Shown here: in pieces, positions 28,227 through 59,050 of the stretch
How positions within the stretch are numbered: the first letter of the stretch is position 1
How the letters are laid out: each line of letters opens with the position of its first letter
NCBI RefSeq assembly: GCF_028898845.1
Contig: NZ_CP118574.1
Coordinates: 8,047,001-8,111,000, forward strand
DNA length: 64,000 nt
DNA from: Streptomyces sp. WZ-12
GTDB taxonomy: Bacteria > Actinomycetota > Actinomycetes > Streptomycetales > Streptomycetaceae
Reading direction: 5' to 3'
Translations under genes and position numbers: made by a program
Notes under the pieces: generated by a model
Seen by the model: only the letters and a program-made list of their open reading frames with translations
What the model was told of the DNA's origin: nothing
Database searches by the model: none

Positions 28227-28251
28227 GGTGGGTTCCTCGATTCGGGGGCGG

Positions 28252-29094
28252 TCAGGCGGTGAAGGGGGAGGGCGGTTTGGGGGTGCCGGCCAGTCCGCCG
28301 TCCGGCACCGACACCCCGCCGTCGAGGACGAGGGCCTGTCCGGTGAGGTAGGAGGCGGCGGGGGAGGCCAGGAACAGGGCGGCGCGGGCGATCTCTTCGG
28401 GTTCCGCCCAGCGGCCCAACGGGACGTGTGCCGTGAGCCAGTCCGACAGCGGTGCCAGGGAGTAGGCGAAGGCCGTCATGTCGGTGCGGGTCCAGCCGGG
28501 GCAGAGCGCGTTGACGCGGATGCCCTGGCGCGCCCAGCCGACCGCCAGGCTGCGGGCGAGGGCGATCTGTGCCGCCTTGGACGCGCCGTACGCCTCCATC
28601 CGCGGGGTGCCGGCGACACCGGCCAGCGAGGACATCAGCACCACGCTGGCGCGGGAGGAGGCCGTGAGGTGGCGGTGGGCGCGCCGGCAGAGCGCCGCGG
28701 TGGCGTTGAGGTTGACCGCGATCACGTGGTCCCAGTCGGCCTGTTGGGAGTCCTGGAGGGGGACCAGGGTGGGGGTGCCGTCCTCTTGGGAGGGCAGCAC
28801 GCCGGCGTTGTGGACGATGACGTCGAGCCCGTCGAGTGCGGTGGCCGCCTCGTCCACCACCTCCTCGGCGGCGCCCGGTTCGGCGAGGTCGCCGGGGACG
28901 AGGGCCGCGGTGCGCCCGGCGTCCTCCACCAGGGCGGCGGTCTCCTTCAGCGCCGTTGAGGTGCGGGCGGACAGTGCGAGGTCGGCGCCGGCCCGGGCCA
29001 GGGCGACGGCGGTGGCCTTGCCGATGCCGCGGGAGGCGCCGGTGACCAGGGCGCGGGCGCCGTCGAGCCGGAACGGGTCGGGTGTTGTGGTCAT
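28252..29094 (-). CDS. SDR family oxidoreductase (3-oxoacyl-ACP reductase-like)
   Basis: A 280-residue classical SDR: ALVTGASRGIGKATA (residues 15-29) binds NADP(H), HNAGV is motif II, VVLMSSLAGV holds the catalytic Ser, and MEAYGASKAAQIAL the Tyr169/Lys173 pair. DPFRLDGARALV is a FabG-like N-terminus. In this operon it most likely reduces the beta-keto group of the ACP-bound chain. It sits between two KAS III genes; its start overlaps the stop of the second KAS III by 4 bp. Confidence 0.87.
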   Translation of the reverse strand: MTTTPDPFRLDGARALVTGASRGIGKATAVALARAGADLALSARTSTALKETAALVEDAGRTAALVPGDLAEPGAAEEVVDEAATALDGLDVIVHNAGVLPSQEDGTPTLVPLQDSQQADWDHVIAVNLNATAALCRRAHRHLTASSRASVVLMSSLAGVAGTPRMEAYGASKAAQIALARSLAVGWARQGIRVNALCPGWTRTDMTAFAYSLAPLSDWLTAHVPLGRWAEPEEIARAALFLASPAASYLTGQALVLDGGVSVPDGGLAGTPKPPSPFTA

Positions 29095-42510: not shown

Positions 42511-42586
42511 TCGGCCCACGCCCGTAGAGGACGGTGGTGGGTCGGGAGTGACGGCCCGCCACCGGCCGCGTTCCCGGAGGTTCCCG

Positions 42587-43978: not shown

Positions 43979-43999
43979 GATCCGTCAGAAGCGCCCTAG
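43978..43999. mobile_element. solo end of the same IS-like element
   Basis: 22 bp (AGATCCGTCAGAAGCGCC then CTAG) identical to the right end of the 39107-39274 element, including the CTAG. No partner end lies nearby. The CTAG contains the stop codon of the ABC permease gene, and the NmrA remnant adjoins the other side, so this is a one-ended insertion relic. Confidence 0.65.
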
Positions 44000-44844
44000 C
44001 CGTCGCTGGACCAGCGGAAGCGGCGGGCGGCGAAGAGGATGCCGAGGAGGAGCCAGGCGGCCAGGACCAGGGCGGTTTGCGGGTGTTGCCAGCCACCGCC
44101 GACCTCCTGGCTGGCGAAGGAGTCGGGGAGCAGGGCCGAGCGCATGCCTTGGGCCATCCACTTGACCGGGAAGAGCTCTGCCACGTACCGGAGCCAGCCG
44201 GGGACGTTGCCGTAGACGAAGTACACGCCGGAGATGAACTGGAGGAGGACGGCGAAGGGGGCGACCACGGCCGAGGCGCTGCGGCCGCTGCGGATGAGGT
44301 TGGAGAGGGCGATGCCGACGGTGGCGCAGGCGGCGCAGCCCAGGATGCCGACCCAGGCGAACGTCAACCAGCGCGCCGGGCTGGTGGGCAGCGGGACGCC
44401 GTAGCACAGACCGGCGATGAGGAAGAGCAGGGTGATCTGCGCGGCCGAGGTCGCCACGACGAGGATGATCTTGCCGGCGAAGTAGACGGTCCGGGGCATG
44501 GGGGTGCCGGCGAACCGCTTGAGGGCGAGGTTGTCGCGTTCGATGGGCACGGTGATGGCCAGGCTCTGGAAGCCGGTGCTCATCAGGCCGGAGGCCACGA
44601 TGCCGGCGAGCAGGTACTGGGTGAATTGCACGTCGGGCGTGAGGCGTTGGGAGAACGCGGAGCCGAACACGGTGAACATGATCAGCGGGAAGCAGAAGGT
44701 GAAGATCATGCTTTCGCGTTGCCTGGCGAACTGCCGCAGTTCCATCCGGCCCTGGCGCAGACACAGGGAGACCAACGACCGGCGGCGGGGGGCGGGGGTC
44801 TGTGCGGTGGCCGCGGTGGCGGGCGGGGTGGTGGTCTCGGTCAT
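43996..44844 (-). CDS. ABC-2 type permease
   Basis: 282 residues with six membrane helices (MIFTFCFPLIMFTVFGSAF, GIVASGLMSTGFQSLAI, IILVVATSAAQITLLFLIAG, WLTFAWVGILGCAACATVGIA, VVAPFAVLLQFISGVYFVYG, and a last one near the C-terminus). QFISGVYFVYGNVPGWLRYV and LFPVKWMAQGMRSAL are the ABC-2 conserved segment. It is coupled to the ATPase gene (ATGA overlap), forming the likely exporter of the linear-azole peptide. The stop codon lies in an IS-like CTAG, so the last residues may be altered. Confidence 0.85.
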   Translation of the reverse strand: MTETTTPPATAATAQTPAPRRRSLVSLCLRQGRMELRQFARQRESMIFTFCFPLIMFTVFGSAFSQRLTPDVQFTQYLLAGIVASGLMSTGFQSLAITVPIERDNLALKRFAGTPMPRTVYFAGKIILVVATSAAQITLLFLIAGLCYGVPLPTSPARWLTFAWVGILGCAACATVGIALSNLIRSGRSASAVVAPFAVLLQFISGVYFVYGNVPGWLRYVAELFPVKWMAQGMRSALLPDSFASQEVGGGWQHPQTALVLAAWLLLGILFAARRFRWSSDG

Positions 44845-45731
44845 GCGCGCTCTCCGATCATGTCGAGGTAGATGTCCTCCAACGACAGGCGGGTGACGGT
44901 TAGTTCGGGGATCTCGTTGGTGAATTGGGCGGCGAGTTGGCGCACCAGCGCGGTGGGGGTGGTGGTGCGGACGGTCTGCGGTCCGTCGGGGCCGCGCCAG
45001 TGGACCTCGGCGGTGCCGTTCTCCCGGCCGCCCAGTCGCGCCGGGGTGTCGACGGCGATCACCCGGCCCTTGTTGATCACGGCGACCCGGTCGGCGAGGT
45101 TCTCGGCCTCGTCCAGATAGTGCGTGGTCAGCAGGATCGTGGTGCCCTGGTCCCGCAGGGTCCGGATCAGGGACCAGAAGCGGCGGCGCACCTCGGGGTC
45201 GAAGCCGGTGGTCGGCTCGTCGAGGAAGAGGAGTTGGGGGCGGCCGACGATGCCCAGGGCGATCTCCAGGCGGCGGCGCTTGCCGCCGGAGAGCTTGTTC
45301 AGCCGGCGGTCCGCCTCCTCCGTGAGTTCGGCCAGGTCGAGGGCTTCGTCGACGGGGAGGGGGTGGGAGTAGTAGCCGCCGAAGAGGTCGACGACCTCGC
45401 GCACGGTGAGGGTGCCGAAGTCGGCGGCGCCCTGGAGGACGATGCCGATCCGGTCGCGCCAGGCGGGCGTGGGGTGTCTGGGATCGGTACCCAGGACGCT
45501 GACCTCGCCGCCGTCCGCCCGGCGGTGCCCCTCCAGGATCTCCATCGTGGTGGTCTTGCCGGCGCCGTTCGGGCCGAGCAGGGCGAGGATCTCCCCGGTG
45601 TGGACGTCCAGGTCGACGCCGTCCAGGGCGGTGAGGGAGTGGTAGCGCTTGGTCAGTCCGCGGACGCGGATCGCGGGACTTCCCTCCTCCCGGGGGCGGT
45701 TGGGGGACCGGGGCGGGGCGGGCGCGGGCAT
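44841..45731 (-). CDS. ABC transporter ATP-binding protein
   Basis: 296 residues: Walker A LLGPNGAGKTTTMEILEG, Q-loop VLQGAADFGT, signature NKLSGGKRRRLEIALGIVGR, Walker B LLFLDEPTTGFDPEVR and switch His in LLTTHYLDEAENLADR. It is a DrrA-type drug/antibiotic exporter ATPase, pairing with the ABC-2 permease that follows. Start 54 bp after the end of the upstream dehydrogenase gene, so it is in the RiPP operon and probably gives export and self-resistance. Confidence 0.9.
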   Translation of the reverse strand: MPAPAPPRSPNRPREEGSPAIRVRGLTKRYHSLTALDGVDLDVHTGEILALLGPNGAGKTTTMEILEGHRRADGGEVSVLGTDPRHPTPAWRDRIGIVLQGAADFGTLTVREVVDLFGGYYSHPLPVDEALDLAELTEEADRRLNKLSGGKRRRLEIALGIVGRPQLLFLDEPTTGFDPEVRRRFWSLIRTLRDQGTTILLTTHYLDEAENLADRVAVINKGRVIAVDTPARLGGRENGTAEVHWRGPDGPQTVRTTTPTALVRQLAAQFTNEIPELTVTRLSLEDIYLDMIGERA

Positions 45732-45785: not shown

Positions 45786-47426
45786 TCAGTTCGGTGGGGT
45801 GGGGTTCGGTTCGATGGGGTGCGGTTCAGTGCGTTGGGTGGGGGTGGTCGGGCTGTTGGCGGGTTGGGCTTCGGGCGGGCCCAGGCGGTGTTCGGGGCGG
45901 GTGGTTCCGTGGGCCGGGTGCCCGAGTTGTAGCAGCAGGGTGCTTGCCGGCAACTCGGTGTGCAGGCCGAGCAGTTCGTCCAGCCTGTCGGCCAGTACGT
46001 CGGCGTTGACGCGGGAGGCCAGTCCGCGGGCGGCGGCAGCCAGGCCGGCGCGCTGGGCGGCGGTGCCGACGCGGGTGTAGTGGAGCCGGACCCCGTCCGC
46101 GCCGTGCTCGCGCAGCGCGTGGGCCGGGTCGGCGGCCCAGACCAGCCCCGCCGCGGCGTTGAGGAACCCCTCGCGGACGAAGTCCTGGACGGCGCAGGCG
46201 GCCAGCGCCGGACCGGGGCTGCTGAGGGAGATCGGAAGGAGGCGGTGGCGGTCGGGCAGATAGCGGAACAGGCCGCGGGGCAGTCCGGCCACATCGTTGA
46301 CGTAGCAGAACAACTGACCCTCGTCGGGTGCGGCTGCGGCCAGCACGGTGGCGAAGTCGGCGATATTGATGGGCAGTTGGGCGAATCCGCGCAGGGCGGC
46401 GCGACGGTGGGAGAGGCCCCGGGCGAGGTTGAGGGGGTGGGGGCAGGGGAGTTCGAGGGTGGGGTGGTGGGGGTCTGGATGGGGCGCCGTCGTGAGGGGC
46501 GCCCGTTGGGCGGCATTGCCCCCGATGGGGGTGGCCGGGCCGCGGTGGAGGGCGCGGAGCAGCGCGGCCGTCCGGGGGAGCAGTGCGTCCACCGGGCCGG
46601 GGGGTGGTCCCGGGGATTGGCGCGGAGTGGCGGGTGGGCGTTCGGGGGGTGGGGTTGGGGATGCGGTGGGTGCCACGGGGTGGAAGGCGACGACCTCGGT
46701 GACGGGCTCGGCGAGCGGGTCGAGGCGCAGCAGGCCGGCCGCGACGGCGGGATCGAACGGCGCGACACGCACCGCCCGCAGCCCGGCGGACGTTGCGACG
46801 ACCTCGCACTGCGCGGTGACGACGCCGGTCTCCACGCAGCCGTAGCGGTAGCCGAACTCGCCGTAGCGCGCGGCGATCGTGCCCAGCGACACCGTGCACA
46901 CCCAGCCGGACGCGGCCGTCGGCGACATGCCGAGGGCCGCCCGGTGGTCGCCGGCCCGGACGGGCAGCAGGCGGTGGTGCAGCGGGTCGTAGCGGTAGCA
47001 GCCCTCCGGCAGCACGCAGTAGAGGGTGACGCAGTACAAGGCGCCAGCGGACGGCACCGGGCGGCGGGGGACGGGCCCGCCGCCGGGCTCCCCGGCCAGC
47101 GCGCCGAGGTCGCCGACCAGCGGCAACCGGTCCAGCCCGGTCAGCCACTGGACGCGGGTGAGGCCGTAGACGGTGTGCAGGAGCGCGCCCAGGTCGGGCT
47201 GGGAGCCGGAGTCGGGGAGTGGCGGCCAGGGCAGGGGGACGGCGGCAAGACGGGTGTCGGGCTTGCCAGTTGGGGCGGTGCCCGTGCCCGAGTCCGGCCA
47301 GGCGTGCACGTCCGGTGCGGTAGCCGGCAGCCGCACGGGCGCCGGGACGACCTGCGGTGCCAGGTAGTCGACGACGGCCGGCTCGGGGTGGAGGCGAGGG
47401 GCGACCGCGTCCCCACAAAGGCTCAT
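45786..47426 (-). CDS. SagB-type peptide azoline dehydrogenase, two nitroreductase-like domains
   Basis: 546 residues with two SagB/nitroreductase-like modules. The first (residues about 60-250) has LLHTVYGLTRVQW, PVPSAGALYCVTLYCVLPEG and RYGEFGYRYGCVETGVVTAQ; the second (about 350-500) has LNLARGLSHRRAALRGFAQL, CYVNDVAGLPRGLFRYLPDR and FVREGFLNAAAGLVWAADP. SagB enzymes use FMN to oxidise azolines to azoles. The ATG overlaps the upstream stop by 4 bp. A Pro/Thr-rich tail of about 50 residues ends it. Whether one module is inactive, or each oxidises different rings, is unknown. Confidence 0.85.
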   Translation of the reverse strand: MSLCGDAVAPRLHPEPAVVDYLAPQVVPAPVRLPATAPDVHAWPDSGTGTAPTGKPDTRLAAVPLPWPPLPDSGSQPDLGALLHTVYGLTRVQWLTGLDRLPLVGDLGALAGEPGGGPVPRRPVPSAGALYCVTLYCVLPEGCYRYDPLHHRLLPVRAGDHRAALGMSPTAASGWVCTVSLGTIAARYGEFGYRYGCVETGVVTAQCEVVATSAGLRAVRVAPFDPAVAAGLLRLDPLAEPVTEVVAFHPVAPTASPTPPPERPPATPRQSPGPPPGPVDALLPRTAALLRALHRGPATPIGGNAAQRAPLTTAPHPDPHHPTLELPCPHPLNLARGLSHRRAALRGFAQLPINIADFATVLAAAAPDEGQLFCYVNDVAGLPRGLFRYLPDRHRLLPISLSSPGPALAACAVQDFVREGFLNAAAGLVWAADPAHALREHGADGVRLHYTRVGTAAQRAGLAAAARGLASRVNADVLADRLDELLGLHTELPASTLLLQLGHPAHGTTRPEHRLGPPEAQPANSPTTPTQRTEPHPIEPNPTPPN

Positions 47427-48370
47427 CGGTCGGGGTCTCCCGTCTTCGGGGACGGGACCAGCGCCCGGACCGAGGCGGCCGCCAGGGCCAGCAGCATCCG
47501 GTGGCGGCGGCCCGGCACGCCCAGCCGGTTGCCCATCAGCGCCGTGTACTCGTCGAGGACGCGCAGCAGTTGCACCTCCGCGGCCCCGGAGGCCGGTAAC
47601 TGGGCGGCGCGGACCGCGCTGGTCAGCTTCGCCAGGAGCGGGTGGGTGGCGTCCATCCAGCCACCGAGCGCCCAGAACTCCTCCTCGCGCGGCGGTGGCG
47701 CGCCCGGCACGCACTGGTAGGGATGGGTGGCCGCCCCGTCCCAGCCCCTGGGCAGCATCCAGATCCCCCGCAGCAGTGTGACGAACTCCTGCCGGCCGGC
47801 GGCGAACTCCTCGGTCAGCTCCGCGGATTCCAGCACGCCCGCCAGGTTGCCGGCGGCGACCAGGGCCTCGGACCGCGCGCGCAGGTCGGCCGGCCGGCGC
47901 AACTCATGGGCGCGGTTGGCGAGGAGGAAGGAGAGCACCTCGGTGTCGCGTTCGGCCGCGTCGGGCCCGTCGAGCAGCATCCGCACGGCCACGGCGCTGG
48001 CGGAGGCCAGGTGCTGTTCCTGCCACCGGACGACCGGGGGCGGGCCGGAGACCAGCACCGGGGGACGCTGCCGGTCGGGCGGCGGGTTGAGCAGCGCCTG
48101 GCCGGGGGCGGTCAGCTGGCGGTGCAGTTGGTGCCGCACGGCCTCGCCGGCCCCCGGTTCGGTGACGTGGAACCAGGTGCGCAGCCGGCCGGCGGTCCCG
48201 ACCTTCTGGTAGACGAAGCGGTGCGCGGCCCCGGCCATCGCCAACTGCTCGACGGCGGGGGCCAGTACGTCCCGGACGGCGACCCCGAGGTCGGGTGCCA
48301 CGTCCAGGTCGAGCGCCACCCAGTCCGCCGTCTCCTCCGCAGTCATGTCGTCCCCTCCCGATGTCTGCAT
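47423..48370 (-). CDS. thiopeptide-type bacteriocin biosynthesis protein (SpaB_C-like), stand-alone
   Basis: 315 residues. WVALDLDVAPDLGVAVRDVL, then HRFVYQKVGTAGRLRTWFHV and EPGAGEAVRHQLHRQL are typical of the lantibiotic-dehydratase C-terminal domain / thiopep_ocin family. In thiopeptide pathways related domains eliminate glutamate from Ser/Thr or perform the [4+2] pyridine cyclisation. No glutamylating LanB N-terminal protein is present in the operon and the precursor core contains no Ser, so neither role is straightforward here. Start at 48370 (GGAGGAGAG upstream) or 48346; both have good ribosome-binding sites. Confidence 0.8.
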   Translation of the reverse strand: MQTSGGDDMTAEETADWVALDLDVAPDLGVAVRDVLAPAVEQLAMAGAAHRFVYQKVGTAGRLRTWFHVTEPGAGEAVRHQLHRQLTAPGQALLNPPPDRQRPPVLVSGPPPVVRWQEQHLASASAVAVRMLLDGPDAAERDTEVLSFLLANRAHELRRPADLRARSEALVAAGNLAGVLESAELTEEFAAGRQEFVTLLRGIWMLPRGWDGAATHPYQCVPGAPPPREEEFWALGGWMDATHPLLAKLTSAVRAAQLPASGAAEVQLLRVLDEYTALMGNRLGVPGRRHRMLLALAAASVRALVPSPKTGDPDR

Positions 48371-48497: not shown

Positions 48498-50219
48498 CTA
48501 TCCGTGGATCCGGGACATCAGGTTCGGGCCCGGTCTGCTGCGGGCCACGGAGATCTGGAACAGCGGGATGTGCCGGCGGTCGGCGAGGTCGAACTGCGCG
48601 CGGACGGCGTCCGCGTGGTACGAGTTGGTGATCCGCGCCGCCGCCTGGCACCCCGCGGCGCCCAGGCAGATGCGGTGCGCGGCCTCGCCGGCGAGCGCGT
48701 TGAGGATGCGGTAGCCGCGGGCCCCGAACCGCCGGTCGGCCCAGGTGCGGTCGCCGACCACGTAGACCACGGCGTTGACGTCCGCGTAGTGGGGCTGTAG
48801 CCAGCCGCCCACCTCCGGTCCCACCGGCGGTTGGTGACGGTGCCGCAGCAGGGCACGCCCGTCGTCGGCGAGCCGGTAGGAACCGGGCTCGACGCCCTCG
48901 ACGGTGCGGAGTTGGGCGTAGATGCGGAGCGGGGCAGCGGAGGGGGAGAAGGTGTCATGAGTGAGCTCGGTGCCCATGCCGGTGCCGGCGTCCACGCCCG
49001 TGGCCGTACCGAGACCCGCGCTCATGCCGTGCCGGGCCGCGAAGCGGAAGAGCTCGTGCAGTGCGGTGCGCGGTAGCGGCCGGCGGACGGGGGCGAAGAA
49101 GCCGGGCCCCGAATTCCGGCCGACGACCAGGGCGTCCAGGTCCGCCTCGCCCACGGGTGTGCAGTCCACGGGCGGCCCGACCGTCTTCGGTACCGACGCC
49201 GGCTCGGTCGCGCCCTCGGACCAGTCCACCCCCGCGGTCTCCTCCCACACCACCGCCCGCTCCATGGCCACCAGGCGCGGGCAGTGCACGGCCACCGGCC
49301 TGGCCGGGTCCTCCGCCGGGGGCAGGGGAACGGGCGCCGCGGTGGGCCGAGGCGCGGGCAACCGGGCGCCGCGGCCGCGCCCGTCGCGCAGCACGACCAC
49401 GGCGTACGGCGACTCCTCGCCCGGTGTCAGGCCCAGGAGCCGCGTCAACTCCCCGTCCGGGAAGAGGTGGTGGACGTCCGCGGAGAGCCCCAGCGCCGCG
49501 GCGACGAGGGTGAGGCTGCCGGTGACCAGGCCCGCCTCCTGGGAGCAGAGGCGGTAGGCGTAGTCCCGGTAGACGAACGCGGTCTGCCAGAACCGGCTGG
49601 TCAGCACGGCGACGCCGACCACATCGTCGACGTCGCCGCCCGTATCGCCGCCGCCGTTCCCCGCATCCTCCGCGCCCACCAGGCCAACCAGGTACGACAC
49701 CAGGTCGCCCGCAGCCTTCTCACCACCGGTTCCCTCGCCCTCCCGGAGCGGGATCAGGGCGTGGTGCGCCGGGTCGTGGGTGTAGAGGCCGGGGCGCAGC
49801 GGTGCGCAGGACGGGGCGCGCAGGGCGAGATGGAGCTGGGTGGGGAACAGGCACCGGGGCGAGGCGACGGTGCGGTGCAGGGCCCGGCTCTGCGGGTTGG
49901 GCATCGGCTCGTAGCGGATCAGGCCGTTGGCGTGCGCGAGGAGGGTGGACCAGGTCCGCTCGTCGCATCCGTCGTCGAGGCTCTCGCCGAGCCCCGGGCG
50001 ACCGACGCCCAGCCGGCCGGGGCGGCTGAGCGGGACCGGTCGGGCGCGCAGCCGCTTGGGGAACTGTGGCGGGGCGAGCGGGTTGTTGGGCATCTCCTGA
50101 CGGCCGGCGATCCCGTCGGCGAGGTTCTCCAGGCTGAAGTCCCAGAAGGCGGCCAGCGGGTCCTTGTCCGCCGGTCCGCCGGCTGACTGGCCGGCCGGGG
50201 CCTCGACCGCCGTCATCAT
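48498..50219 (-). CDS. SagB-type peptide azoline dehydrogenase, second copy
   Basis: 573 residues, also built of two nitroreductase-like modules: the N-terminal one shows DRERTWSTLLAHANGLIRYE-like start, TQLHLALRAPSCAPLRPGLY and FVYRDYAYRLCSQEAGLVTG (FMN-contacting R/Y motif), and the C-terminal one LRIYAQLRTVEGVEPGSYRL and RILNALAGEAAHRICLGAAG. Together with the other SagB gene this makes four modules in one cluster. It follows the YcaO gene by 59 bp. A divided labour, one protein for the Cys6 block and one for the Cys3 block, is speculation. Start MMTAVEA at 50219 or 50216. Confidence 0.85.
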   Translation of the reverse strand: MMTAVEAPAGQSAGGPADKDPLAAFWDFSLENLADGIAGRQEMPNNPLAPPQFPKRLRARPVPLSRPGRLGVGRPGLGESLDDGCDERTWSTLLAHANGLIRYEPMPNPQSRALHRTVASPRCLFPTQLHLALRAPSCAPLRPGLYTHDPAHHALIPLREGEGTGGEKAAGDLVSYLVGLVGAEDAGNGGGDTGGDVDDVVGVAVLTSRFWQTAFVYRDYAYRLCSQEAGLVTGSLTLVAAALGLSADVHHLFPDGELTRLLGLTPGEESPYAVVVLRDGRGRGARLPAPRPTAAPVPLPPAEDPARPVAVHCPRLVAMERAVVWEETAGVDWSEGATEPASVPKTVGPPVDCTPVGEADLDALVVGRNSGPGFFAPVRRPLPRTALHELFRFAARHGMSAGLGTATGVDAGTGMGTELTHDTFSPSAAPLRIYAQLRTVEGVEPGSYRLADDGRALLRHRHQPPVGPEVGGWLQPHYADVNAVVYVVGDRTWADRRFGARGYRILNALAGEAAHRICLGAAGCQAAARITNSYHADAVRAQFDLADRRHIPLFQISVARSRPGPNLMSRIHG

Positions 50220-50278
50220 GTGCCTCCTGCTCGGGGTGTGGGGGTGGGGGCCCGTGGGGCCGTGGAGCTCCCGCGGGC

Positions 50279-52309
50279 TCATGGGAAGGGGTGCGGGTGC
50301 GGGTTGATGTCGTCGCGGGTGAGCGGGGAGGCCCGGCGGCCCAGGGCGACCGGGACGGTGGCCAGCCGCGGCAGGTCGGCGAAGCGCTGTCGCCGGTGCC
50401 CGAAGACCATCGGCAGGGCGCCGGTGACCAGGACCTTCACCGCCCGGAATCCGCCGGCCAGATGCTCGGCGCTGCTCTGGTCGACGACCACGACCTCCTG
50501 GCCGCAGTCGGCGAAGCGGGCGACCAGCGCGGTCAGCGAGGCCGTCAGATCGCTCTCCCGGGATCGCCACCACAGCCCCGCCAACTCCTCCGGGGCGACC
50601 GGTGCCCCGCCACCTTCCCCATGGCCTTGGGCCGGGTCTTCCCCGTGGTCTTCCCCGCGGTCGAAGAGGAAGTCGAAACGGGGCCGGGCCTCGGGGGTGG
50701 CGGACGCCAGGACGTGGTCCAGCAGCGTCATGACCTGGTCCGGGTCGCGGGTCAACTCCCGTGCCCGGTCGCGCTCGGCGGCGTACTGGCGGGCGATGTA
50801 GTCGACCGTCTGGGACAGTTCGTGCAGCGCGCCCAGCAGGCCGTCCTCGGGGACCAGCGACGAGCCGCCGGTGCAGACCACCCGCGGCCGGTCCGGGTCG
50901 CCGGTGGTGTCCTCGGCCATCACCCAGAACGTGGGGACGCCGTTGTCCACCGTGGTGGCGAAGGCGTGCACCCGACAACCGTGCCGGTGCCGGATCCTGG
51001 CCTCGATCAGCCGGACGTCCGGGCCGCAGCGGGCCAGGTCGATGCGGGGCGGGGTCATCCGCGCGTACCAGGTCAGCAGGAACGCGTCCCGCTCGGCCAC
51101 CTCCAACAGGCCGTGCAGCGCGGCCTCCTCCAAACTGGCGCCCAGCGCGCACCCGTTGGAGATCTCGTAGGCGATCCGGGGGCCGGCACCCGGAAGGCGG
51201 TGCCGTCCGTAGTAGGCGAACTGCTCGGGTACCAGGACGGGGCGCCGGGCGGTGAGCGAGTAGCCCCAGACCCAGGGGAGGGCGAGTTCGGGGTGGTAGC
51301 GGTGGAAGGGGCCGTCGTCGGTCAGCTCGTCCTGTGGGGGCAGCCCGAGCCGGCGCGGGTCCAGGGCGCGCTCGGCCAGCTCGCGGTACGAGCCGTGCAC
51401 CACCGTCCGCTTGCCGCGCGGGAGTTGCCCGGCGAGGCGCTCCAGCCCCTCGGTGACGGCGACGTCGCGGCAGGAGTCGAAGGTGGTGGTCCGCCCGTAC
51501 CCGAATTCGGCCATCGGGCCGTCGGCGAGGTCGTGCGTCCCGGGGACGACCACCGGGGCCTCGGCGAACGGCAGGCCGTGGCCCATGGAGAGGGAGACCT
51601 CGGGCACGACGCCGGCGAGCGGGTCGAGGTAGGTCCGCACCAGTTGGGCGGGGTCCAGGGCGCGCTGTCGGCTGCCGCCGGGGTGCCCGGTGGGCCGGGA
51701 GGCCAGCGGCACCACCGCCCGCTCCGGGGAGTCGTCGGGGAGGTCGCCGCATACCGCGCAGCCCGGTTCGGGCAGCACCCGGTGGGTGGTCACCCGCAGG
51801 GTCCGGCGGTCGAGGACGACGACGGGGCGGGTTGCCGGGCGGCCGTCACCGTCCGCGTCGGGCGCGGAAGTTGGCGCCGTCTCCCAGCGGTCCCACGCGG
51901 CCAGCACGCGTTCCAGCACGGAGCCGAAGAGTCCCCCGGACGGCACCGGGCGCCCGGCGGCCGGTTGCGACGCCTGCGCGCGCACCGCCGCGTCCGCCCG
52001 CCGCTGTGGGGTCCGGCGCCAGGCGCGGCGGTCCACACAGGTGGGGCAGCCGGGCCGCCCGGGGGCGACCAGCGGGCCGATGACCACCTGGCCGGGCTCG
52101 GCCAGTACCGGCAATACGGGCTCGCCGCGGTGCCGGGCCAGTCGGCTGGCCCCCGCGCCGTCCCAGGTGTCGGACGCGAAGACCGCCGGCCCCTGGGGGA
52201 GCGGGCGCCGACGCAGCGCATCGGCCAACGGGCCGCTGCCCAGGACCGGCGCGGGCCCGACCGCCGCCTGTCCGACGGCTTCGCTGGCTTCCATGACCTG
52301 CTCAGGCAT
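50279..52309 (-). CDS. YcaO cyclodehydratase with N-terminal leader-binding module
   Basis: 676 residues. The N-terminal 200 residues have CPTC (88-91) and CAVC (184-187), the four-Cys zinc site seen in ThiF/E1-like TOMM partner proteins. The YcaO domain follows: FGYGRTTTFDSCRDVAVTEG and SNGCALGASLEEAALHGLLE with ATP-binding acidic residues. The last residues are NPHPHPFP, the PxPxP terminus of azoline-forming YcaO enzymes. It uses ATP to cyclise Cys to thiazolines. Overlaps the upstream leader-binding gene by 8 bp. The ring-forming engine of this operon. Confidence 0.93.
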   Translation of the reverse strand: MPEQVMEASEAVGQAAVGPAPVLGSGPLADALRRRPLPQGPAVFASDTWDGAGASRLARHRGEPVLPVLAEPGQVVIGPLVAPGRPGCPTCVDRRAWRRTPQRRADAAVRAQASQPAAGRPVPSGGLFGSVLERVLAAWDRWETAPTSAPDADGDGRPATRPVVVLDRRTLRVTTHRVLPEPGCAVCGDLPDDSPERAVVPLASRPTGHPGGSRQRALDPAQLVRTYLDPLAGVVPEVSLSMGHGLPFAEAPVVVPGTHDLADGPMAEFGYGRTTTFDSCRDVAVTEGLERLAGQLPRGKRTVVHGSYRELAERALDPRRLGLPPQDELTDDGPFHRYHPELALPWVWGYSLTARRPVLVPEQFAYYGRHRLPGAGPRIAYEISNGCALGASLEEAALHGLLEVAERDAFLLTWYARMTPPRIDLARCGPDVRLIEARIRHRHGCRVHAFATTVDNGVPTFWVMAEDTTGDPDRPRVVCTGGSSLVPEDGLLGALHELSQTVDYIARQYAAERDRARELTRDPDQVMTLLDHVLASATPEARPRFDFLFDRGEDHGEDPAQGHGEGGGAPVAPEELAGLWWRSRESDLTASLTALVARFADCGQEVVVVDQSSAEHLAGGFRAVKVLVTGALPMVFGHRRQRFADLPRLATVPVALGRRASPLTRDDINPHPHPFP

Positions 52310-54410
52310 CGCCGATCACCACCCGGACGCCGAAGCGGATCAGTTCGGCCAGCGCCGGATCGTCGTCCAGCACGTGGAGCACCGCGCACAGCCCGGCGGC
52401 GCGCAACTGCTCAAGCGTCGCGGCCAGTTGGTCGACCCCATCGGTCGTGGCCAACCGTGGCTGCACGGACGGCAGCTCGCGCGCCGGGTCGCCCCCCGTG
52501 TCCGCCGGGCCGCCGGACTCCGCCCGGTGGTGGGCCAGTTGCCAGGCCAGCAGGGTGTCGTGCAGGCCGGCCGACAGCGCGGTGCGGGCGTCGGGGTGCA
52601 CCTGGACGGCGACGGTCGCGCCGTCGAGCAGGAACGCGTACGCCGGCAGCGCGGCGGCGGGCGAGGCGATCCGGTGGACCGCCCAGCGCGCCTCGGTGGT
52701 CGTGAGCAGGTCCACGCAGTTCCGGTCCGCGGCGGCCAGTTCGGCGAGCGGCACGGGGGCGGCGGACGCCCCCTCGGCCGGCTCCCCGGCAGCCTCTCCG
52801 GCTGTTCCCGCGGCCGCCGCTTCGGCCGGGCCCCCGGTGGCGCGCTCCGGTACGAGCCGGGCGAGCGCGGCCAGGATGCCGGCCAGCGCCGAGCGGTCCA
52901 GGTCGGCCTCGGCGGCGATACCGTGCGCGTACCGGCCGGTTCCGGGGACCGGCAGCGGGCGTGCCAGCTCCGTGACGAGGTCCCAGCCCGACTCGGACGC
53001 GGGCCGCGGCGACGCCTGCCGGGCCAGCTCAAGGGCGGTGGCCGCGGCCCGGCGCAGCGCGTGCGCGCGGGCGCCGTGGGCGGTCTGCGCCGCGCCCCAA
53101 ACGGCCCGCGGCGCGGTGCGCAGGCCCGGGTCGGCGACCCTCGCCTCGGTGACGAACAGCGGCAACTGCGGGTAGTCGCGCTCCCGCACCTCCGGGATCG
53201 GGCCCAGATGGCGGTCGCAGGCCGCCGTGAGCCGCTCCAGGAACAGCGGGTCCGGTACGGGCTCGGCGGCGCGCAGGAGGCGGACACGGCGGGCGGGCGC
53301 CGGCTCGGCACGGAAGTCGTCGGCCCCGGAGTCGCGTGCACCCGAGGGGGCGAGGACGGGGTGGTGGTCGATCTCCAGCGTCGCCGTGTCCAGCCGGGCC
53401 ATCGCGGCCAGCTCCGGCATGGCCACCCCGGTCAGGTGGCAGAACGCCCGGAACGCGAGCTGGATCGCGGCCAACTCCGGTACGGGGCCCCGATAGAGCT
53501 CGTCGGGGCTGGGACCGGCCCGCAGCGCCTGACGCTCGTCGTCACTACGGGTGGCCAACAACCGCCGCCACGCAACGCCCCCGTACAGGTACCCGTTGTT
53601 GTCGTCCGCATCGGGGGCATCGGCCGCGGGCGTGCACGCCGGCCAGATCCACACCGCGTCACCCACCACGAGCCCCTGGACCAACGGGATTTCGAGCCGG
53701 GCGCAGCACGCACCCACCGGGCCACGGGCGTCGGCCCCGGGGCGATCGGCGAGGTGCAGCACGACATCGGCCGGGCGCAACAGCGCCTCCCAACCCGCGG
53801 ACTCCGCCCCGCCGGGCGCGGTCACGATCGCCAACTGGCCCGGCACCTCGGGCAACGCGTCGGCGAACTGGCGCACCGTCCGCACGTCATCCGCCTCGGG
53901 CAGGACCAACGTCAACTCCCCGGCCCCGCAGTCCGTCAACGCGCTGAGGAACCCCCGCGCCGCATCGGGACCGCAGACGCAGACCAGGCGGGCGGCGCGG
54001 AAGTCCTGGAAGCGGCGCTCGGCCGAGTCGGTGAAGTAGTCGATGAACTGGACGGGCCCGGCGTACCGTTCGGCCTCGGCGGCACCGAGGGTGTGCGGCC
54101 GGTCGGAGCCGGTGTCGCGGACGAAGCCGCGCTCCAGCAGCGTGCCCACCAACTGCCGCACCGGGGGGCGTTGTGGGTCGGGCACGGCGGCCAGCAGCTC
54201 GTCCAGCGTGGCGGCGCCGGTCAGGGCCGGGGCGAGGGCGGTGAGCAGCCGGTGCACCGAGGCGCCCTTGAGGAACAGGCTGCCGCGGGTGCTGCGGACG
54301 AAGGCGCCGTCGGGCATCGCGGCGAAGTACACGTCGCCGCGCAGTCGCGGGCGCACCGCACCGGTGGTCTGGACGGTCGCGGTTCGGCGTGTTTGACGTT
54401 CTTCTTCCAT
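52302..54410 (-). CDS. TOMM leader-peptide-binding protein (ocin-ThiF-like)
   Basis: 702 residues. The N-terminal part (RPRLRGDVYFAAMPDGAFVR, residues ~20-40, then SLFLKGASVHRLLTALAPAL) is the RiPP recognition element that grips the leader; a ThiF-like domain follows (GPVQFIDYFTDSAERRFQDF, LVCVCGPDAARGFLSALTDC). The C-terminal half contains the azole-cluster F-protein domain. Such F proteins present the precursor to the YcaO enzyme. Start MEEERQ at 54410; upstream ATG in frame overlaps the precursor gene. It is 92 bp downstream of the precursor gene. Confidence 0.87.
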   Translation of the reverse strand: MEEERQTRRTATVQTTGAVRPRLRGDVYFAAMPDGAFVRSTRGSLFLKGASVHRLLTALAPALTGAATLDELLAAVPDPQRPPVRQLVGTLLERGFVRDTGSDRPHTLGAAEAERYAGPVQFIDYFTDSAERRFQDFRAARLVCVCGPDAARGFLSALTDCGAGELTLVLPEADDVRTVRQFADALPEVPGQLAIVTAPGGAESAGWEALLRPADVVLHLADRPGADARGPVGACCARLEIPLVQGLVVGDAVWIWPACTPAADAPDADDNNGYLYGGVAWRRLLATRSDDERQALRAGPSPDELYRGPVPELAAIQLAFRAFCHLTGVAMPELAAMARLDTATLEIDHHPVLAPSGARDSGADDFRAEPAPARRVRLLRAAEPVPDPLFLERLTAACDRHLGPIPEVRERDYPQLPLFVTEARVADPGLRTAPRAVWGAAQTAHGARAHALRRAAATALELARQASPRPASESGWDLVTELARPLPVPGTGRYAHGIAAEADLDRSALAGILAALARLVPERATGGPAEAAAAGTAGEAAGEPAEGASAAPVPLAELAAADRNCVDLLTTTEARWAVHRIASPAAALPAYAFLLDGATVAVQVHPDARTALSAGLHDTLLAWQLAHHRAESGGPADTGGDPARELPSVQPRLATTDGVDQLAATLEQLRAAGLCAVLHVLDDDPALAELIRFGVRVVIGDA

Positions 54411-54502
54411 GGCCTCGGCGTCGTTTCGGGGAAGTGGTTCGGTCCTGGAGGAACCGGCGGTGGTGGCCCGCCGGACAGCGCGGGCCACCACCTCGGTCAC
54501 CG

Positions 54503-54709
54503 TCAGGTGCAGCAGCAGGGGCAGCAGCAACAGCAGCAGTTGCCGTGCCCGTTGTCGTCCATGCGCACCTCAAGTCCGCCGTCGGTGACGCCCGGCAGCG
54601 ATCCGATGGCGGGCACCGCGGCCGAGGAGAACTCGCTGGCCTCGACGACCTCGAAGTCCGCGGCCTCGATCCCGTCGAGATCCAGGCTGAGCAGGGCAGC
54701 GTTGGACAT
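54503..54709 (-). CDS. linear azole RiPP precursor with poly-Cys core
   Basis: 68 residues. Start MSNAALLSLDLDGIEAADFE has AGGAGGTGAAG seven bases upstream. The acidic leader (DFEVVEASEF...AVPAIGSLPGVTDG) is of the thiopeptide/TOMM kind. The C-terminus reads DDNGHGN then NCCCCCCPCCCT: six cysteines, a proline, three cysteines and Thr68 (Cys58-63 and 65-67). All nine Cys can become thiazoles, giving an almost continuous poly-thiazole with one Pro hinge. There is no Ser anywhere in the core, so the pyridine of classical thiopeptides cannot form. It is directly upstream of the F-protein, YcaO and SagB genes. The cleavage site (probably near G-N or N-C) is not visible. Confidence 0.9.
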   Translation of the reverse strand: MSNAALLSLDLDGIEAADFEVVEASEFSSAAVPAIGSLPGVTDGGLEVRMDDNGHGNCCCCCCPCCCT

Positions 54710-54895: not shown

Positions 54896-55999
54896 TCAGC
54901 CCGCGCTGGTCGCCCGGGTGCGGGCCCCGGTGCGCAGGGCCGTCAGCTTCTCCCGCAGTAGGGGCACGACCGAGGCACGGAACATCTCGATCGAGCGGCG
55001 CGCCTGCGCCAGCGGCATCGCGCCGATGTCGACCTGCCACAGGATCTGGTCCACCCCGCCGAAGTCGCGGACCAGGCGGAGGATGCGCTCGGCGGCGGTG
55101 GCGGGGGAGCCGACGATCGCCCCGTTGATCTCCCGGATGTAGGCGGGCGTGACGCCGGCCAATTTGCGGCCGAAGTCGCCGTAGCCCTGGTAGTCGCCCG
55201 ACTCGCGGCCGTTCCAGGACTCCACGGCCTCGGTCCACACCTCCAGATAGCGCGCGATGTGCCGGTCGGCCAGGCGCTCGGCCTCCGCGTCGGTCTCGGC
55301 GAGGATCAGCGGCAGGCTGGTGGCGATCCGCGGGGTGTGTCCGGCGGCCGCCGCGGCGTCGCGGTAGAGGTCCACCAACGGCCGCATCCGCGCGGCCGGG
55401 TTGAGCGACGGGGTCATCAGCAGCCCGAAGCCGTTGCCGCCCAACCACTGGAAGCTGCCCGGGGTCATGCTGGCGGCGCCCCAGACCGGCGGGTGCGGAC
55501 GCTGCACGGGGGAGGGGCGCCCGGTGGCCTGCCGGTAGGAGAAGTACGGCGTCTCCTCGTCGATCCGCTCCTCGGTCCACAGCCGCAGCACGGCCCGGAT
55601 GGTCTCCCGGTAGCGGTCGGTGGACTCGTCCAGGGAGACCCCGAACGTCTCGAACTCCTGGGGCAGATAGGCTCGGGCGAAGCCGACCTCCAGCCGGCCG
55701 CCGCTGATCGCGTCCACCATGGCGGCCTCGGCGGCGAGTTGGACGGGGTGGTGGAAGGCGGGCAGCACGCAGCCGGTGATCAGTCGCAGCCGGGTGGTGC
55801 GGGCCGCGACGGCGCTGAGGAAGTTCAGCGGGCTCGGGCAGTAGCCTCCGTAGTCGGTCAGGTAGTGCTCGGTCATTTTGGCCGAGGCGAATCCGGCCGA
55901 CTCCGCGAGCGTGCAGAGCGCCAACGCGTCGGAGAAGTACTCCGCCGCCGACTTCCACTCCTCGCGGCAGTCCGGGAGGAAGGACACTCCGAACTGCAT
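54896..55999 (-). CDS. LLM class flavin/F420-dependent oxidoreductase
   Basis: A 367-residue luciferase-like TIM barrel: MQFGVSFLPDCREEWKSAAE and FASAKMTEHYLTDYGGYCPS, then RLRLITGCVLPAFHHPVQLA and VDAISGGRLEVGFARAYLPQ, the bacterial luciferase fold. It heads the RiPP operon, 186 bp upstream of the precursor. Such proteins occur in azole-peptide clusters, where they may hydroxylate or otherwise oxidise the peptide; cofactor (FMN or F420) is not decidable here. Starts 249 bp from the divergent LuxR gene. Confidence 0.8.
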   Translation of the reverse strand: MQFGVSFLPDCREEWKSAAEYFSDALALCTLAESAGFASAKMTEHYLTDYGGYCPSPLNFLSAVAARTTRLRLITGCVLPAFHHPVQLAAEAAMVDAISGGRLEVGFARAYLPQEFETFGVSLDESTDRYRETIRAVLRLWTEERIDEETPYFSYRQATGRPSPVQRPHPPVWGAASMTPGSFQWLGGNGFGLLMTPSLNPAARMRPLVDLYRDAAAAAGHTPRIATSLPLILAETDAEAERLADRHIARYLEVWTEAVESWNGRESGDYQGYGDFGRKLAGVTPAYIREINGAIVGSPATAAERILRLVRDFGGVDQILWQVDIGAMPLAQARRSIEMFRASVVPLLREKLTALRTGARTRATSAG

Positions 56000-56248
56000 G
56001 ACGTGCTCCTTGTTGCGGGGCGCCCGCCGACGCCCCCGTCTGGTGCGGTGATTACGGACCGTCAGTCTGTGCGAGCGGTCATCGGGCGGTCATCCGTCGG
56101 ATGACCTGGCAACTGACTGGGCCGAGGGCCACGCCGACCCCGCGAACCCGGCCGTGACCAGCGGCGGAGTTCTCCGATGGCATGCAACCCAGGGGGTATA
56201 CACACTCGTCATACGACGGGGGACCAACGCGAGAGAGGACACCGTCGG

Positions 56249-59050
56249 ATGCTGGTCGGGAGAGAGCTGGAGCGGGATGAGCTGGGCAGGCTCCTCGACG
56301 ACGCGCGCAAGGGGAGCAGCGGAGCGCTGGTGTTGCACGGGCCAGCGGGGATCGGCAAGAGCGCGCTGCTGGGGGACGTGGTGCAGCGGGCCGAGCCGGA
56401 CGTGTGGGTGCTCCGCGCGGTGGGGGTGGAGGGCGAGGTGGAGCTGCCGTTCGCCGCGCTGCACCAACTGCTGCTGCCGCTGATGCCGTATGTGGCGCGA
56501 CTGCCCGAGCCCCAAGCCGCCGCGCTGCGGGGGGCGTTCGGGCTGGCCAGCGCCCCCGCCGAGCCGTTCCTGGTGGCGCTGGCCGTGCTGACCCTGCTCT
56601 CGGACGCCTCCGAGGACGTGACGCTGCTGCTGGTCGTGGACGACGCGCACTGGCTGGACGGGGCCACGGCGGACGCGCTGATGTTCGTGGCCCGGCGGAT
56701 GGAGCGGGAGAGCATCGCCATGGTCCTCGCGGTCCGGGACGATGCCTCCCGGCCCTTCCCGGCTCCTGGCCTGCGCCAGTTGCAGGTACAGCCGTTGTCG
56801 ACGCCGGCGGCCTCGGACCTGTTGGCCCGGCACCTGCCGCGGGCCACGCCGACCGTCCGCGAACGGCTGCTGCGCGAGGCCGGCGGCAATCCGCTGGCCC
56901 TCATGGAGCTGCCCACCGCGCTGCGCCCGGACCATTTGGACGGCAGCGCCGCGCTGCCCGAACACCTGCCGCTCAGCGAGCGGTTGCACCAGCTCTTCCG
57001 GCACCGCGCGCTGAGCCTGCCCGCCGATCACCACCGGGTGCTGCTGCTCACCGCGGCGGAGAGCGACGGGGACCTGGCCACCGTCCTCGGTGCCGCCGGC
57101 GACGCCGAGGCGGCCATGGACGTGCTCAGCGCCGCCGCGTCGCAAGGGCTGCTCCACCTCGACCAGCAACACGTCCGGTTCCGGCACCCGTTGGTGCGCT
57201 CCGCGCTCTACCAGGGCGCCCCGCTCAACGACCGGCGCGCGGCCCACCTGGCGCTGGCCGATGCCGTCGGGGAGGAGGACGACCGGTACGTCTGGCACGC
57301 GGCGGCGGCCGCGCTCGGCACCGACGACACCGTGGCCGAGCGGCTGGCCACGCTCGCCGAACGCACCCGGCGCACCGGCGGGGTGGCCACCGCGGCCCAG
57401 GCGTTGTGCCGGGCCGCCACGCTGGCCTCCGACCCCGGCCGCCGGGCCCGTTGGATGGTGGAGGCGGCCGAGTGCGCCTGGACGGCGGCGAAGACCACCC
57501 AGGCCGAGTCGCTGTTGGACCGCGCCGAGACGTTAACGGACGACCCGGCGCTGCGGGCGCGCACCGCCCGGGTGCGCGGCGCCATCACCCACGCCAGCAG
57601 CGATCCCGCCCTGGCCTGCCGGATGCTGCTGGACGGCGCCCGCCTCGTAGGGGGCACCGATGCGGAACTGGCCGGGGAACTCCTGGTGATGGCGGCCCGC
57701 TCGGCCTGGGTCGCGGGCGACCCGGCACGGCTGACGGAGATCGGCGACGCGATCGGCCGCCTTCCGCACGGTCCCGTCGCCCAGGCCGACGACGCCACCG
57801 GCGGGAACGCCCCGCCCGGCCTCAGCGCAGAACGCGCCGCCGCCAGCGCCTACTTCTCCCGCCACTTCCACTACTTGGGCGGTCTCGGCCACGGCTCCCA
57901 CCCAAGGAGCCACTCCTCCCCGCCCGATATTCCGGTCTCCGGGATGGCCTGGCTGTCCCCCGCGCACCCCCGGCCGTGGGTGTGGCCGCCGGTGTTCCTG
58001 CCGTACCTCACCGGGACGACCGAGGAGATGCTGCACGCGCACCAGCGCGCCGTCGACGAGCTGCGCAAGGTCGGTGCCTTCGGCGCGCTGCCGATGTCCC
58101 TCGCTCCGTTGGTGGCGCTGCAACTCGTCACCGGCCAGTGGGCCGCGGCCGCTTCCCACGCCACCGAGGCGCTCATCCTCGCCGACGACACCGGCCAGCT
58201 CGGCGCCGCCAGCCATCTGCGCGCCATGCTGGCCTGGGTCGCCGCCGTGCAGGGCAACGGCGACCGCTGCCGTGCCCTGGCCTCGGAGTCCCTGGCGCTG
58301 TCGGCGCCGCGCCGCATCAACTCGGCCATCGGGCTGGCCCAATGGGCACTGGGGCTCCAGGCGCTGGCCGAGGGCCAGCCGGACCGGGCCGCCCGGATGC
58401 TGGGCGAGGTGGCCTCACCGGGTGGGCCCACCGAACACTTCATGGTGAGCTGGTTGGTGCTGCCGGACCTCGTCGAGGCGTCGGTGCGGGCCGGGGACCC
58501 GGAACCGGCCCGGGCCGCGCTGCACAGCTTCGAGGAACGGGCCGTGCCCGACCAACTCCCGCACCTGCGCGCCATGTGGCTCAGGTGCCGGGCCCTGCTC
58601 GCATCGGGCGAGGACGCGGACGCGCTGTTCACCGAGGCCCTGGAGGCCCCGCACCCCTCGGCCTTCGACATCGGCCGGACGCACCTCCTCTACGGCGAGT
58701 GGCTGCGCCGCAACCGCCGCATCAAGCCCGCCCGGGACCATCTGCACCAGGCTGAGACGTATCTGTGCATGCTCGGCGCCCACCCCTGGGCGGAGTTGAC
58801 CCGCCGGGAACTGCGCGCCGCCGGCGACCGGGCTCCGGACCAGCGGGCATCCGAGCCGACCACCGACCTCAGCCGACTCACCTCACGGGAGCTCCAGATA
58901 GCCCGCCTGGCCGCCGAGGGCATGAGCAACCGGGACATCGCCGCCCGGCTCTTCCTCAGCCCCCGCACCGTCGGATACCACCTGTACAAGCTCTTCCCCA
59001 AGTTGGGCATCACCTCCCGCACCCAACTCCACGGCAAGACGTTCGATTGA
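56249..59050 (+). CDS. LuxR family (LAL-type) ATP-binding regulator with TTA codon
   Basis: 933 residues: an AAA/NACHT-like ATPase (Walker A HGPAGIGKSALLG at 30-42, Walker B LLLVVDDAHWLDG), a long TPR-like helical middle, and a C-terminal LuxR helix-turn-helix (LTSRELQIARLAAEGMSNRD, IAARLFLSPRTVGYHLYKLF). This architecture is the typical pathway-specific activator of Streptomyces antibiotic clusters. A TTA leucine codon at 57533-57535 (residue 429) is in frame, so translation probably needs the bldA tRNA. MLVGRE at 56249 is chosen because the family begins there; the frame is open to 56177. It is divergent from the RiPP operon and is its likely activator. Confidence 0.85.
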   Translation: MLVGRELERDELGRLLDDARKGSSGALVLHGPAGIGKSALLGDVVQRAEPDVWVLRAVGVEGEVELPFAALHQLLLPLMPYVARLPEPQAAALRGAFGLASAPAEPFLVALAVLTLLSDASEDVTLLLVVDDAHWLDGATADALMFVARRMERESIAMVLAVRDDASRPFPAPGLRQLQVQPLSTPAASDLLARHLPRATPTVRERLLREAGGNPLALMELPTALRPDHLDGSAALPEHLPLSERLHQLFRHRALSLPADHHRVLLLTAAESDGDLATVLGAAGDAEAAMDVLSAAASQGLLHLDQQHVRFRHPLVRSALYQGAPLNDRRAAHLALADAVGEEDDRYVWHAAAAALGTDDTVAERLATLAERTRRTGGVATAAQALCRAATLASDPGRRARWMVEAAECAWTAAKTTQAESLLDRAETLTDDPALRARTARVRGAITHASSDPALACRMLLDGARLVGGTDAELAGELLVMAARSAWVAGDPARLTEIGDAIGRLPHGPVAQADDATGGNAPPGLSAERAAASAYFSRHFHYLGGLGHGSHPRSHSSPPDIPVSGMAWLSPAHPRPWVWPPVFLPYLTGTTEEMLHAHQRAVDELRKVGAFGALPMSLAPLVALQLVTGQWAAAASHATEALILADDTGQLGAASHLRAMLAWVAAVQGNGDRCRALASESLALSAPRRINSAIGLAQWALGLQALAEGQPDRAARMLGEVASPGGPTEHFMVSWLVLPDLVEASVRAGDPEPARAALHSFEERAVPDQLPHLRAMWLRCRALLASGEDADALFTEALEAPHPSAFDIGRTHLLYGEWLRRNRRIKPARDHLHQAETYLCMLGAHPWAELTRRELRAAGDRAPDQRASEPTTDLSRLTSRELQIARLAAEGMSNRDIAARLFLSPRTVGYHLYKLFPKLGITSRTQLHGKTFD

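Follow-up and report, generated by a model that had tools for sequence, protein, structure and literature searches.

A serine-free Cys6-Pro-Cys3 precursor in an azole-peptide operon of probable thiopeptide ancestry in Streptomyces sp. WZ-12

Thiopeptides join azole, dehydroalanine and pyridine chemistry. The locus described here raises the question of what would be made by an operon that resembles parts of a thiopeptide pathway and carries a precursor ending in six contiguous cysteines, a proline and three further cysteines. The answer argued for below, to which we assign a probability of about two in three, is that a YcaO/F azole-RiPP operon has come from a thiopeptide pathway like that of thiomuracin or GE37468, that the dehydration and pyridine half of this pathway has been lost, and that the product is a linear peptide of the form Thz6-Pro-Thz3.

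The window, by which is meant the whole stretch of 64,000 nucleotides that was analysed, contains the precursor gene on its minus strand. The open reading frame, which had been proposed from the sequence in a preliminary description, is real: it encodes 68 amino acids, MSNAALLSLDLDGIEAADFEVVEASEFSSAAVPAIGSLPGVTDGGLEVRMDDNGHGNCCCCCCPCCCT, followed by a stop codon, with the C-terminal end NCCCCCCPCCCT; its good ribosome-binding site, AGGAGGTG, lies 7 nt 5' of the ATG; and its third-position GC of 0.90 is similar to that of the adjoining genes. The plus-strand reading of 54503-54709 is in a different frame. The features of the operon and its immediate surroundings are the following.

42548..43636, plus strand: cytochrome P450, converging on the operon (PF00067, 2.2e-12); a possible tailoring enzyme whose membership is uncertain
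43996..44844, minus strand: ABC-2 type permease (PF01061, 3.8e-24)
44841..45731, minus strand: ABC transporter ATPase (PF00005, 1e-28)
45786..47426, minus strand: SagB-type dehydrogenase 2, SagB2 (TIGR03605, 111.2 bits, passing the cut-off in a scan of the longer frame 45786-47714)
47423..48370, minus strand: degenerate TbtC-like (SpaB_C-type) glutamate-elimination protein (hhalign)
48498..50282, minus strand: SagB-type azoline dehydrogenase 1, SagB1 (nitroreductase PF00881, 29 bits, passing the cut-off)
50279..52309, minus strand: fused cyclodehydratase (TIGR03882 plus SagD-type YcaO, TIGR03604) with a C-terminal PxPxP
52302..54410, minus strand: TOMM F protein, ocin_ThiF-like, with a leader-binding RRE (TIGR03693; PbtF RRE 8t19)
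54411..54502, minus strand: gap between the precursor and F genes, with a strong stem-loop (RNA fold) directly 3' of the precursor stop, possibly an attenuator
54503..54709, minus strand: RiPP precursor, leader plus core (translation, ribosome-binding site, third-position GC)
54896..55999, minus strand: luciferase-like (flavin or F420) oxidoreductase, LLM (PF00296, 2.9e-60)
56177..59050, plus strand: LuxR-type (LAL) regulator, divergent from the operon (named by eye from its sequence)

The minus-strand order is thus LLM, precursor, F, fused YcaO, SagB1, SpaB_C-like gene, SagB2, ABC ATPase and permease, the precursor lying between the LLM and F genes. Stops and starts overlap at F/YcaO, at YcaO/SagB1 (ATGA) and at SpaB_C-like/SagB2 (ATGA), which suggests translational coupling, and good ribosome-binding sites are also found at LLM and at the SpaB_C-like gene. 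The stretch of 95 nt at 54411-54505, which includes the hairpin, folds at -45.6 kcal/mol.

The earlier assignment of the precursor to the TOMM class of RiPPs is borne out by the genes that adjoin it, which encode an F protein with an RRE, a YcaO cyclodehydratase and SagB dehydrogenases; the traits of a TOMM or linear azol(in)e pathway are present in the form of a TOMM-type YcaO, an F/RRE partner and a precursor with a heterocyclizable core beside the enzymes. Residues 18-101 of the F protein match the leader-binding RRE of PbtF (8t19) at 1e-12, and its TIGR03693 score of 75.5 bits, obtained with the longer frame 52302-54530, is below the cut-off of 561.9. The cyclodehydratase passes the cut-offs of both its models (TIGR03604, 325.4 bits against 219.25; TIGR03882, 102.8 against 36.9) and matches the TruD, LynD and MusD chains. 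For SagB1 the TIGR03605 score of 68.9 bits, from a longer frame, is below the cut-off, as is the score of 68.1 bits given to the P450 at 42548-43636 by the ApyO model (cut-off 525). No protease or cyclase was recognised among the operon genes scanned, and a search of plasmid records with the F protein gave four weak matches. A second, probably unrelated biosynthetic gene set is present at 19820-33122 of the window, with PPDK-like, zinc alcohol dehydrogenase, ketoacyl synthase, ketoacyl synthase III, acyl-CoA oxidase and acyltransferase genes.

The absence of serine that had been claimed for the precursor holds for the core but not for the whole peptide, since the leader does contain Ser. Nine thiols in twelve residues would be expected to bind metal, so a metal-binding or disulfide-linked cysteine peptide might be imagined in place of an azole product; as the same operon holds a full azole set, made up of F, a fused YcaO ending in PxPxP and two SagB proteins, this is considered very improbable. 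A six-frame scan of the window and 26 loci (535,955 bases) detected two runs of at least six cysteines, the precursor core and a run of 15 in one frame at L055:152, which is in the WZ-12 genome outside the window. The latter shows that such runs arise, and it could be argued that the locus is a decaying thiopeptide cluster that gives no product, in which the poly-Cys run reflects drift or replication slippage in an unselected precursor. This reading is judged unlikely. The core is encoded by TGC TGC TGT TGC TGC TGC CCC TGC TGC TGC, so that the Cys codons are interrupted and form no pure DNA repeat, and the precursor is represented in the protein database by two member sequences on three contigs, both of which argue against it. 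A shared-word search of 5.8e9 proteins yielded no homologue besides the precursor itself, and no NCBIfam model matched it at E<=10. Four of 246 genus genomes gave a precursor match (E<=0.01); the three besides its own, at E 0.003-0.008, lie inside frames of 214-767 aa and are attributed to chance.

If the locus is derived from a thiopeptide pathway, then the fate of the dehydration and pyridine enzymes becomes the central issue. A tblastn comparison at E<=0.01 placed neither the LanB proteins of thiopeptide clusters nor those of the sibling clusters described below anywhere in the window, and the sibling TbtD was likewise without a match in the window or in the fetched flanks. With its Ser-free core, and with neither a LanB nor a TbtD-type pyridine synthase found in the window, the locus is not a classical thiopeptide cluster, as had been stated at the outset. 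One LanB query gave a weak tblastn match in L055 (E 0.005), and at E<=0.01 the WZ-12 genome contains a single PF04738 (LanB-N) match, a partial one in a 1180-aa LanB-N-like protein encoded at L055:8027-11569, outside the window and at a distance of 72 kb from the precursor.

The protein encoded at 47423-48370 had been described as a SpaB_C protein in the operon. This is correct as a remote homology, detected by comparison of profiles; it is not correct as a family match, since nothing was found in Pfam at E<=1 or in NCBIfam, NF045556 included, at E<=10. Against the set of sibling TbtC-like proteins hhalign gave a probability of 95.5 and an E of 1.5e-8 over 253 columns, compared with an E of 0.19 against the TbtD set (six of nine proteins, fragments being omitted), and the gene occupies the place of TbtC between SagB1 and SagB2. 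A relic of the pyridine synthase was considered and ruled out: the proteins that align are TbtC-like eliminases, and TbtD is another gene of the siblings. The protein retains 21 of the 44 residues that are invariant in 14 TbtC-like eliminases, which come from five of six thiopeptide loci (the divergent L032 was omitted) and nine of ten siblings (L094, with a broken gene, was omitted). It has lost the Arg, Tyr and Trp of FLRYW, the GPH motif, a Phe/Tyr-containing stretch and the His of HxxxNRxG, which is absent from all three known copies of the SpaB_C-like protein, and it keeps an R-x-R pair and NRxG. In an alignment, the solved LanB 9g04 likewise shows that His together with an FFxRYxxxxxHxRLR-like motif; work on NisB reportedly gives both a catalytic role in elimination. 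No glutamate-elimination protein with intact motifs was found at the locus. Having lost over half of the positions that do not vary among its relatives, the SpaB_C-like protein is no argument for thiopeptide chemistry here, and it is possible that, with R-x-R and NRxG kept, it has some function. An AlphaFold2 model from four sequences had a mean pLDDT of 43.5, too low for a fold search; comparison of the alignment with solved structures gave three matches, none meaningful (best E 0.58); and plasmid records contained no SpaB_C-like protein.

Under the favoured reading, in which the azole half of the pathway has been retained, the F protein would bind the leader and present the core to the YcaO cyclodehydratase, which would convert the core cysteines to thiazolines; one or both SagB proteins would oxidise these to thiazoles, and the ABC pair would export the product. 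Since the core has no Ser and neither a LanB nor a pyridine synthase was found, neither a pair of dehydroalanines nor a pyridine macrocycle is expected, and a linear product is predicted. The simplest outcome would be Thz6-Pro-Thz3, in which a hexathiazole and a trithiazole are formed, provided that the operon is expressed and that all nine cysteines are converted. If, in addition, the leader is cleaved so that the core starts at Asn57, the computed [M+H]+ is 1078.008; for products starting GN- or GHGN- it is 1135.029 or 1329.110. LLM and the P450 may also have roles in the pathway.

Where such an operon came from can be approached through its relatives. A search with P0013, a YcaO relative of 46% identity, found matches in 86 of 200 family genomes, ten of which hold a copy 78-99% identical to P0013. 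These ten sibling clusters (L090-L099) appear to belong to other genera of the family, the names of relatives pointing to Kitasatospora. By similarity to query proteins, all ten have LLM (split in L094), F, two YcaO, SagB1, SagB2, two LanB and a TbtC-like protein, and nine have a gene in the TbtD place, which in three is cut at the edge; the L099 stretch ends too early to include it. In L091, family models for LanB (PF04738, 111.7 and 71.9 bits), TbtC (TIGR03891, 94.6) and TbtD (NF045556, 434.2) pass their curated cut-offs. A motif script found 18 sibling precursor copies in the ten loci, with two copies in eight of them. Most end SSCCCCCPCCSCT; the variant cores are SSCCCCCPCCCCT in L094 and SSCCCCTPCCSCT and SSCCCCTPCCCCT in L096, and in L099, where the leader is atypical 5' of TAGYG, only the cores of the copies entered the count. 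Several genes of L094 are split, and the one precursor copy found there has Cys 11, from decay or from sequencing errors. The motif SS-C4-(C/T)-P is present in all 18 copies, followed by Ser at position 11 in 16 and by Cys in the other two; counted from the first Ser, Ser1 and Ser11 are spaced as in the thiomuracin type. Both sibling precursors tested match the thiomuracin/GE37468 model NF033399 (50.1 and 51.9 bits, cut-off 29), a broad model that also matches L032 at 44.9 bits. The siblings have the look of thiopeptide clusters with a ring made almost entirely from Cys.

The siblings share with the WZ-12 cluster the order LLM, precursor, F, YcaO, SagB1, TbtC-like, SagB2 and a poly-Cys core in which residue 8 is Pro. 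They differ from it in having Ser at positions 1 and 2 (and, in 16 of 18 copies, at 11) and in a pair of LanB genes, an additional YcaO and a gene in the TbtD place, none of which was found in WZ-12. When the cores are aligned on Pro, the WZ-12 core has Asn for Ser1 and Cys for Ser2, each a single-base difference (AGC vs AAC, AGC vs TGC), and lacks Ser11, by a deletion or by a change of Ser11 to Cys together with the loss of one Cys; the two sibling copies with Cys 11 may represent an intermediate step. LLM, F, YcaO, SagB1 and SagB2 align with their sibling counterparts over nearly the full length, F with about 33% identity and LLM with 59-61% in three sibling loci. This conservation, the overlapping starts and stops, the three good ribosome-binding sites noted above, and the selective nature of the loss, with the dehydration and pyridine functions gone and the azole functions retained, are further points against the decay of an unproductive cluster. 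Among 30 non-sibling stretches, some of them short, none contains LLM.

The preliminary description had not recognised a thiopeptide ancestry, and its reading was to fail if close homologues of the precursor had Ser or Thr in the core. This applies in part: the cores of the closest related clusters do contain Ser, and since these clusters look thiopeptide-type, the locus is better read as a derived thiopeptide pathway. In a YcaO tree of 45 rows, the WZ-12 copy included, from 34 selected loci, most of the other rows coming from LanB-bearing clusters (L030 and L031 being exceptions), the WZ-12 YcaO is sister to the sibling copies (99/97), and the sibling pair was duplicated later (95/86); the WZ-12 branch is long (0.99) and was flagged for long-branch effects. 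The leader gives a less clear signal. The numbers of shuffled leaders scoring as well were 103, 219 and 1146 of 2000 for three siblings, and 58/2000 (L029), 885/2000 (L026), 7/2000 (L032) and 21/5000 (L045) for thiopeptide precursors, the seven tests being uncorrected. The start of the leader resembles those of L045 and L032, and its likeness to the sibling leaders is not clear; the L045 precursor (10068-10337, minus strand), which is also F-dependent, has the leader start NAALLDLEQLGDEMFEVVQ and a Ser-rich core. Given the weak leader similarity and the missing NCBIfam match, the link between the precursor and those of the siblings rests on position and core. Thiopeptide ancestry and the direction of change are both inferred, with support. 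As for direction, a degenerate eliminase would be difficult to account for had there never been a dehydratase, so a loss from a thiopeptide-like ancestor is preferred to a gain by the siblings. The direction is made less certain by L030 and L031, which fall in the same part of the tree and also show no LanB in their 20 kb, so that the absence of LanB is not confined to the WZ-12 cluster.

Relatives of the F protein occur in 46 of 199 genus genomes, that of WZ-12 included. Of 20 stretches around such relatives, 17 have LanB and TbtC-like genes and are thiopeptide-type, the others being L030, L031 and the 4-kb contig L034. L030 and L031 were considered as closer relatives of the WZ-12 cluster and ruled out on account of their sugar-type and glycosyltransferase-like genes (by eye) and the absence of LLM. 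Both have an F-dependent YcaO and two SagB; their neighbours, named by eye, include a nucleotidyltransferase, a sugar dehydratase (L031) and a glycosyltransferase, and L031 has a candidate precursor at 227-538 on the minus strand that ends AILCACCCSWCGC. Their products are possibly glycosylated azole peptides.

The intact cluster has a narrow distribution. Among the 120 YcaO matches listed, the closest is 93% identical (Streptomyces sp. NPDC057743) and the next at most 46%, and the intact cluster was seen in one species group only; a contig search, for which few patterns were drawn, gave a distant YcaO relative of 32% identity in Massilia arenosa (L005). The LLM search matched three of 374 class genomes, that of WZ-12 included; of the other loci matched, L103 gave no F or YcaO match within 20 kb, and L104, a contig of 3.7 kb, is too short to judge. 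Scoring of 7998 candidates identified two relatives of the SpaB_C-like protein, P0005 (Streptomyces sp. S186, 69%) and P0006 (Streptomyces NPDC020883, 65%). The protein was found in three of 392 genus genomes: its own, G311 (66%) and G049, with a weak partial match. With P0005 as the query, there was one match in 199 relatives (WZ-12) and one in 295 (G311; this was the same genome draw, viewed from G311).

The G311 locus (L049/L050) is a partly deleted cluster with an LAL gene, a piece of LLM, the N-terminal part of F, the SpaB_C-like gene, SagB2 and the ABC ATPase; no match to the precursor, YcaO or SagB1 was found there, the SagB1 query giving only a 28% match, on SagB2. The LAL regulator of WZ-12 is 80.6% identical to the one beside this cluster in L049. 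A partly deleted relative of this kind, together with a YcaO seen in one species group among the matches listed, speaks for decay and against the favoured reading. The dN/dS of 0.64 for the SpaB_C-like gene, compared with 0.30-0.41 for four other genes, also fits with decay, being the weakest constraint among the genes that allowed a comparison (the permease, with 20 codons aligned, was unusable).

An alternative fate for the SpaB_C-like protein would be a new role, for it, for LLM or for the P450, in leader removal or ring closure, which would make the product a macrocyclic or otherwise further processed polyazole, closer to the YM-216391-type polyazole cyclopeptides. We regard this as improbable, somewhat more so than decay. 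In its favour, the SpaB_C-like frame is 65-69% identical in two other species and keeps R-x-R and NRxG despite its motif losses; against it, the start of SagB2 overlaps the stop of this frame, which may persist for translational coupling only. LLM is conserved in the siblings, at about 60% identity, and the P450 adjoins the operon; but at E<=1e-4 no P450 relative was seen in any of the ten sibling stretches of 20 kb, and the lack of a recognised protease or cyclase among the operon genes scanned also weighs against ring closure.

With a linear Thz6-Pro-Thz3 peptide retained as the preferred product, the locus can be placed among known systems. The thiomuracin/GE37468 family has F, a fused YcaO and SagB. 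The sibling precursors match the model for this family and the WZ-12 F protein matches PbtF, whereas the WZ-12 precursor has no NF033399 match at E<=10, no Ser pair, and no LanB or TbtD found with it. Five clusters (L027-L029, L081 and L082) have precursors ending ASNCTSxGTPASCCSCCCC, which we take to be cyclothiazomycin. They resemble the WZ-12 cluster in four contiguous C-terminal cysteines and in F, YcaO and SagB, and are unlike it in having core Ser/Thr, LanB and TbtC-like genes, with TbtD confirmed by a model in L027 only. The streptolysin S family differs from the present cluster in host lineage and leader-binding partner. It is similar in combining a contiguous Cys run with an azole synthetase, and no functional link is proposed. 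The streptolysin S core starts with five contiguous cysteines, and validated cores have 9-10 contiguous heterocyclizable residues (PMC4513790). A heterocycloanthracin cluster would have an F protein, a fused YcaO and a B protein beside a precursor of its own type. F, fused YcaO and SagB are present here; for the precursor, the lack of any NCBIfam hit at E<=10 must be read with the proviso that the release perhaps holds no model for the heterocycloanthracin precursor. Cox et al. 2015 report an F protein outside heterocycloanthracin and thiopeptide clusters in two cases only, both orphans (PMC4603692).

The claim that no product with this core has been described holds for the literature searched, which was largely open rather than subscription papers and in which CCCCCPCCSC, SSCCCCCPCC, CCCCCCPCCC and CCCCCPCC are all absent; the novelty of the poly-Cys run as such had been overstated, in view of streptolysin S and of the Cys5-Pro-Cys2 of the siblings. 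No such cluster is described in the accessible parts of the literature on polythiazoles, TOMM mining, Kitasatospora thiopeptides, LLM with thiopeptides, or pyridine synthases (including PMC12018205). The locus is best filed as an unusual azole RiPP with thiopeptide ancestry and a full azole gene set. The fuller proposal, that a thiomuracin/GE37468-type pathway has become the maker of a linear nona-thiazole through loss of the core serines, the dehydratase and the pyridine synthase and decay of the eliminase, that it is the mirror image of the pyritides, and that Thz6-Pro-Thz3 is a new polyazole scaffold, is held with slightly better than even confidence.

The pyritides offer a parallel, being thiopeptide-like pathways minus one of two chemistries; they keep dehydration and pyridine formation and have neither Cys nor azole genes (PMC9247985). 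The WZ-12 locus, in which the azole genes are kept and the dehydration and pyridine genes are missing, is seemingly the opposite case, and it would help to explain how RiPP pathways change class. A natural product very dense in thiazoles could also be reached through it, by a route that can be tested, and the siblings offer a set of clusters with a nearly all-Cys ring and a core that is absent from the literature searched.
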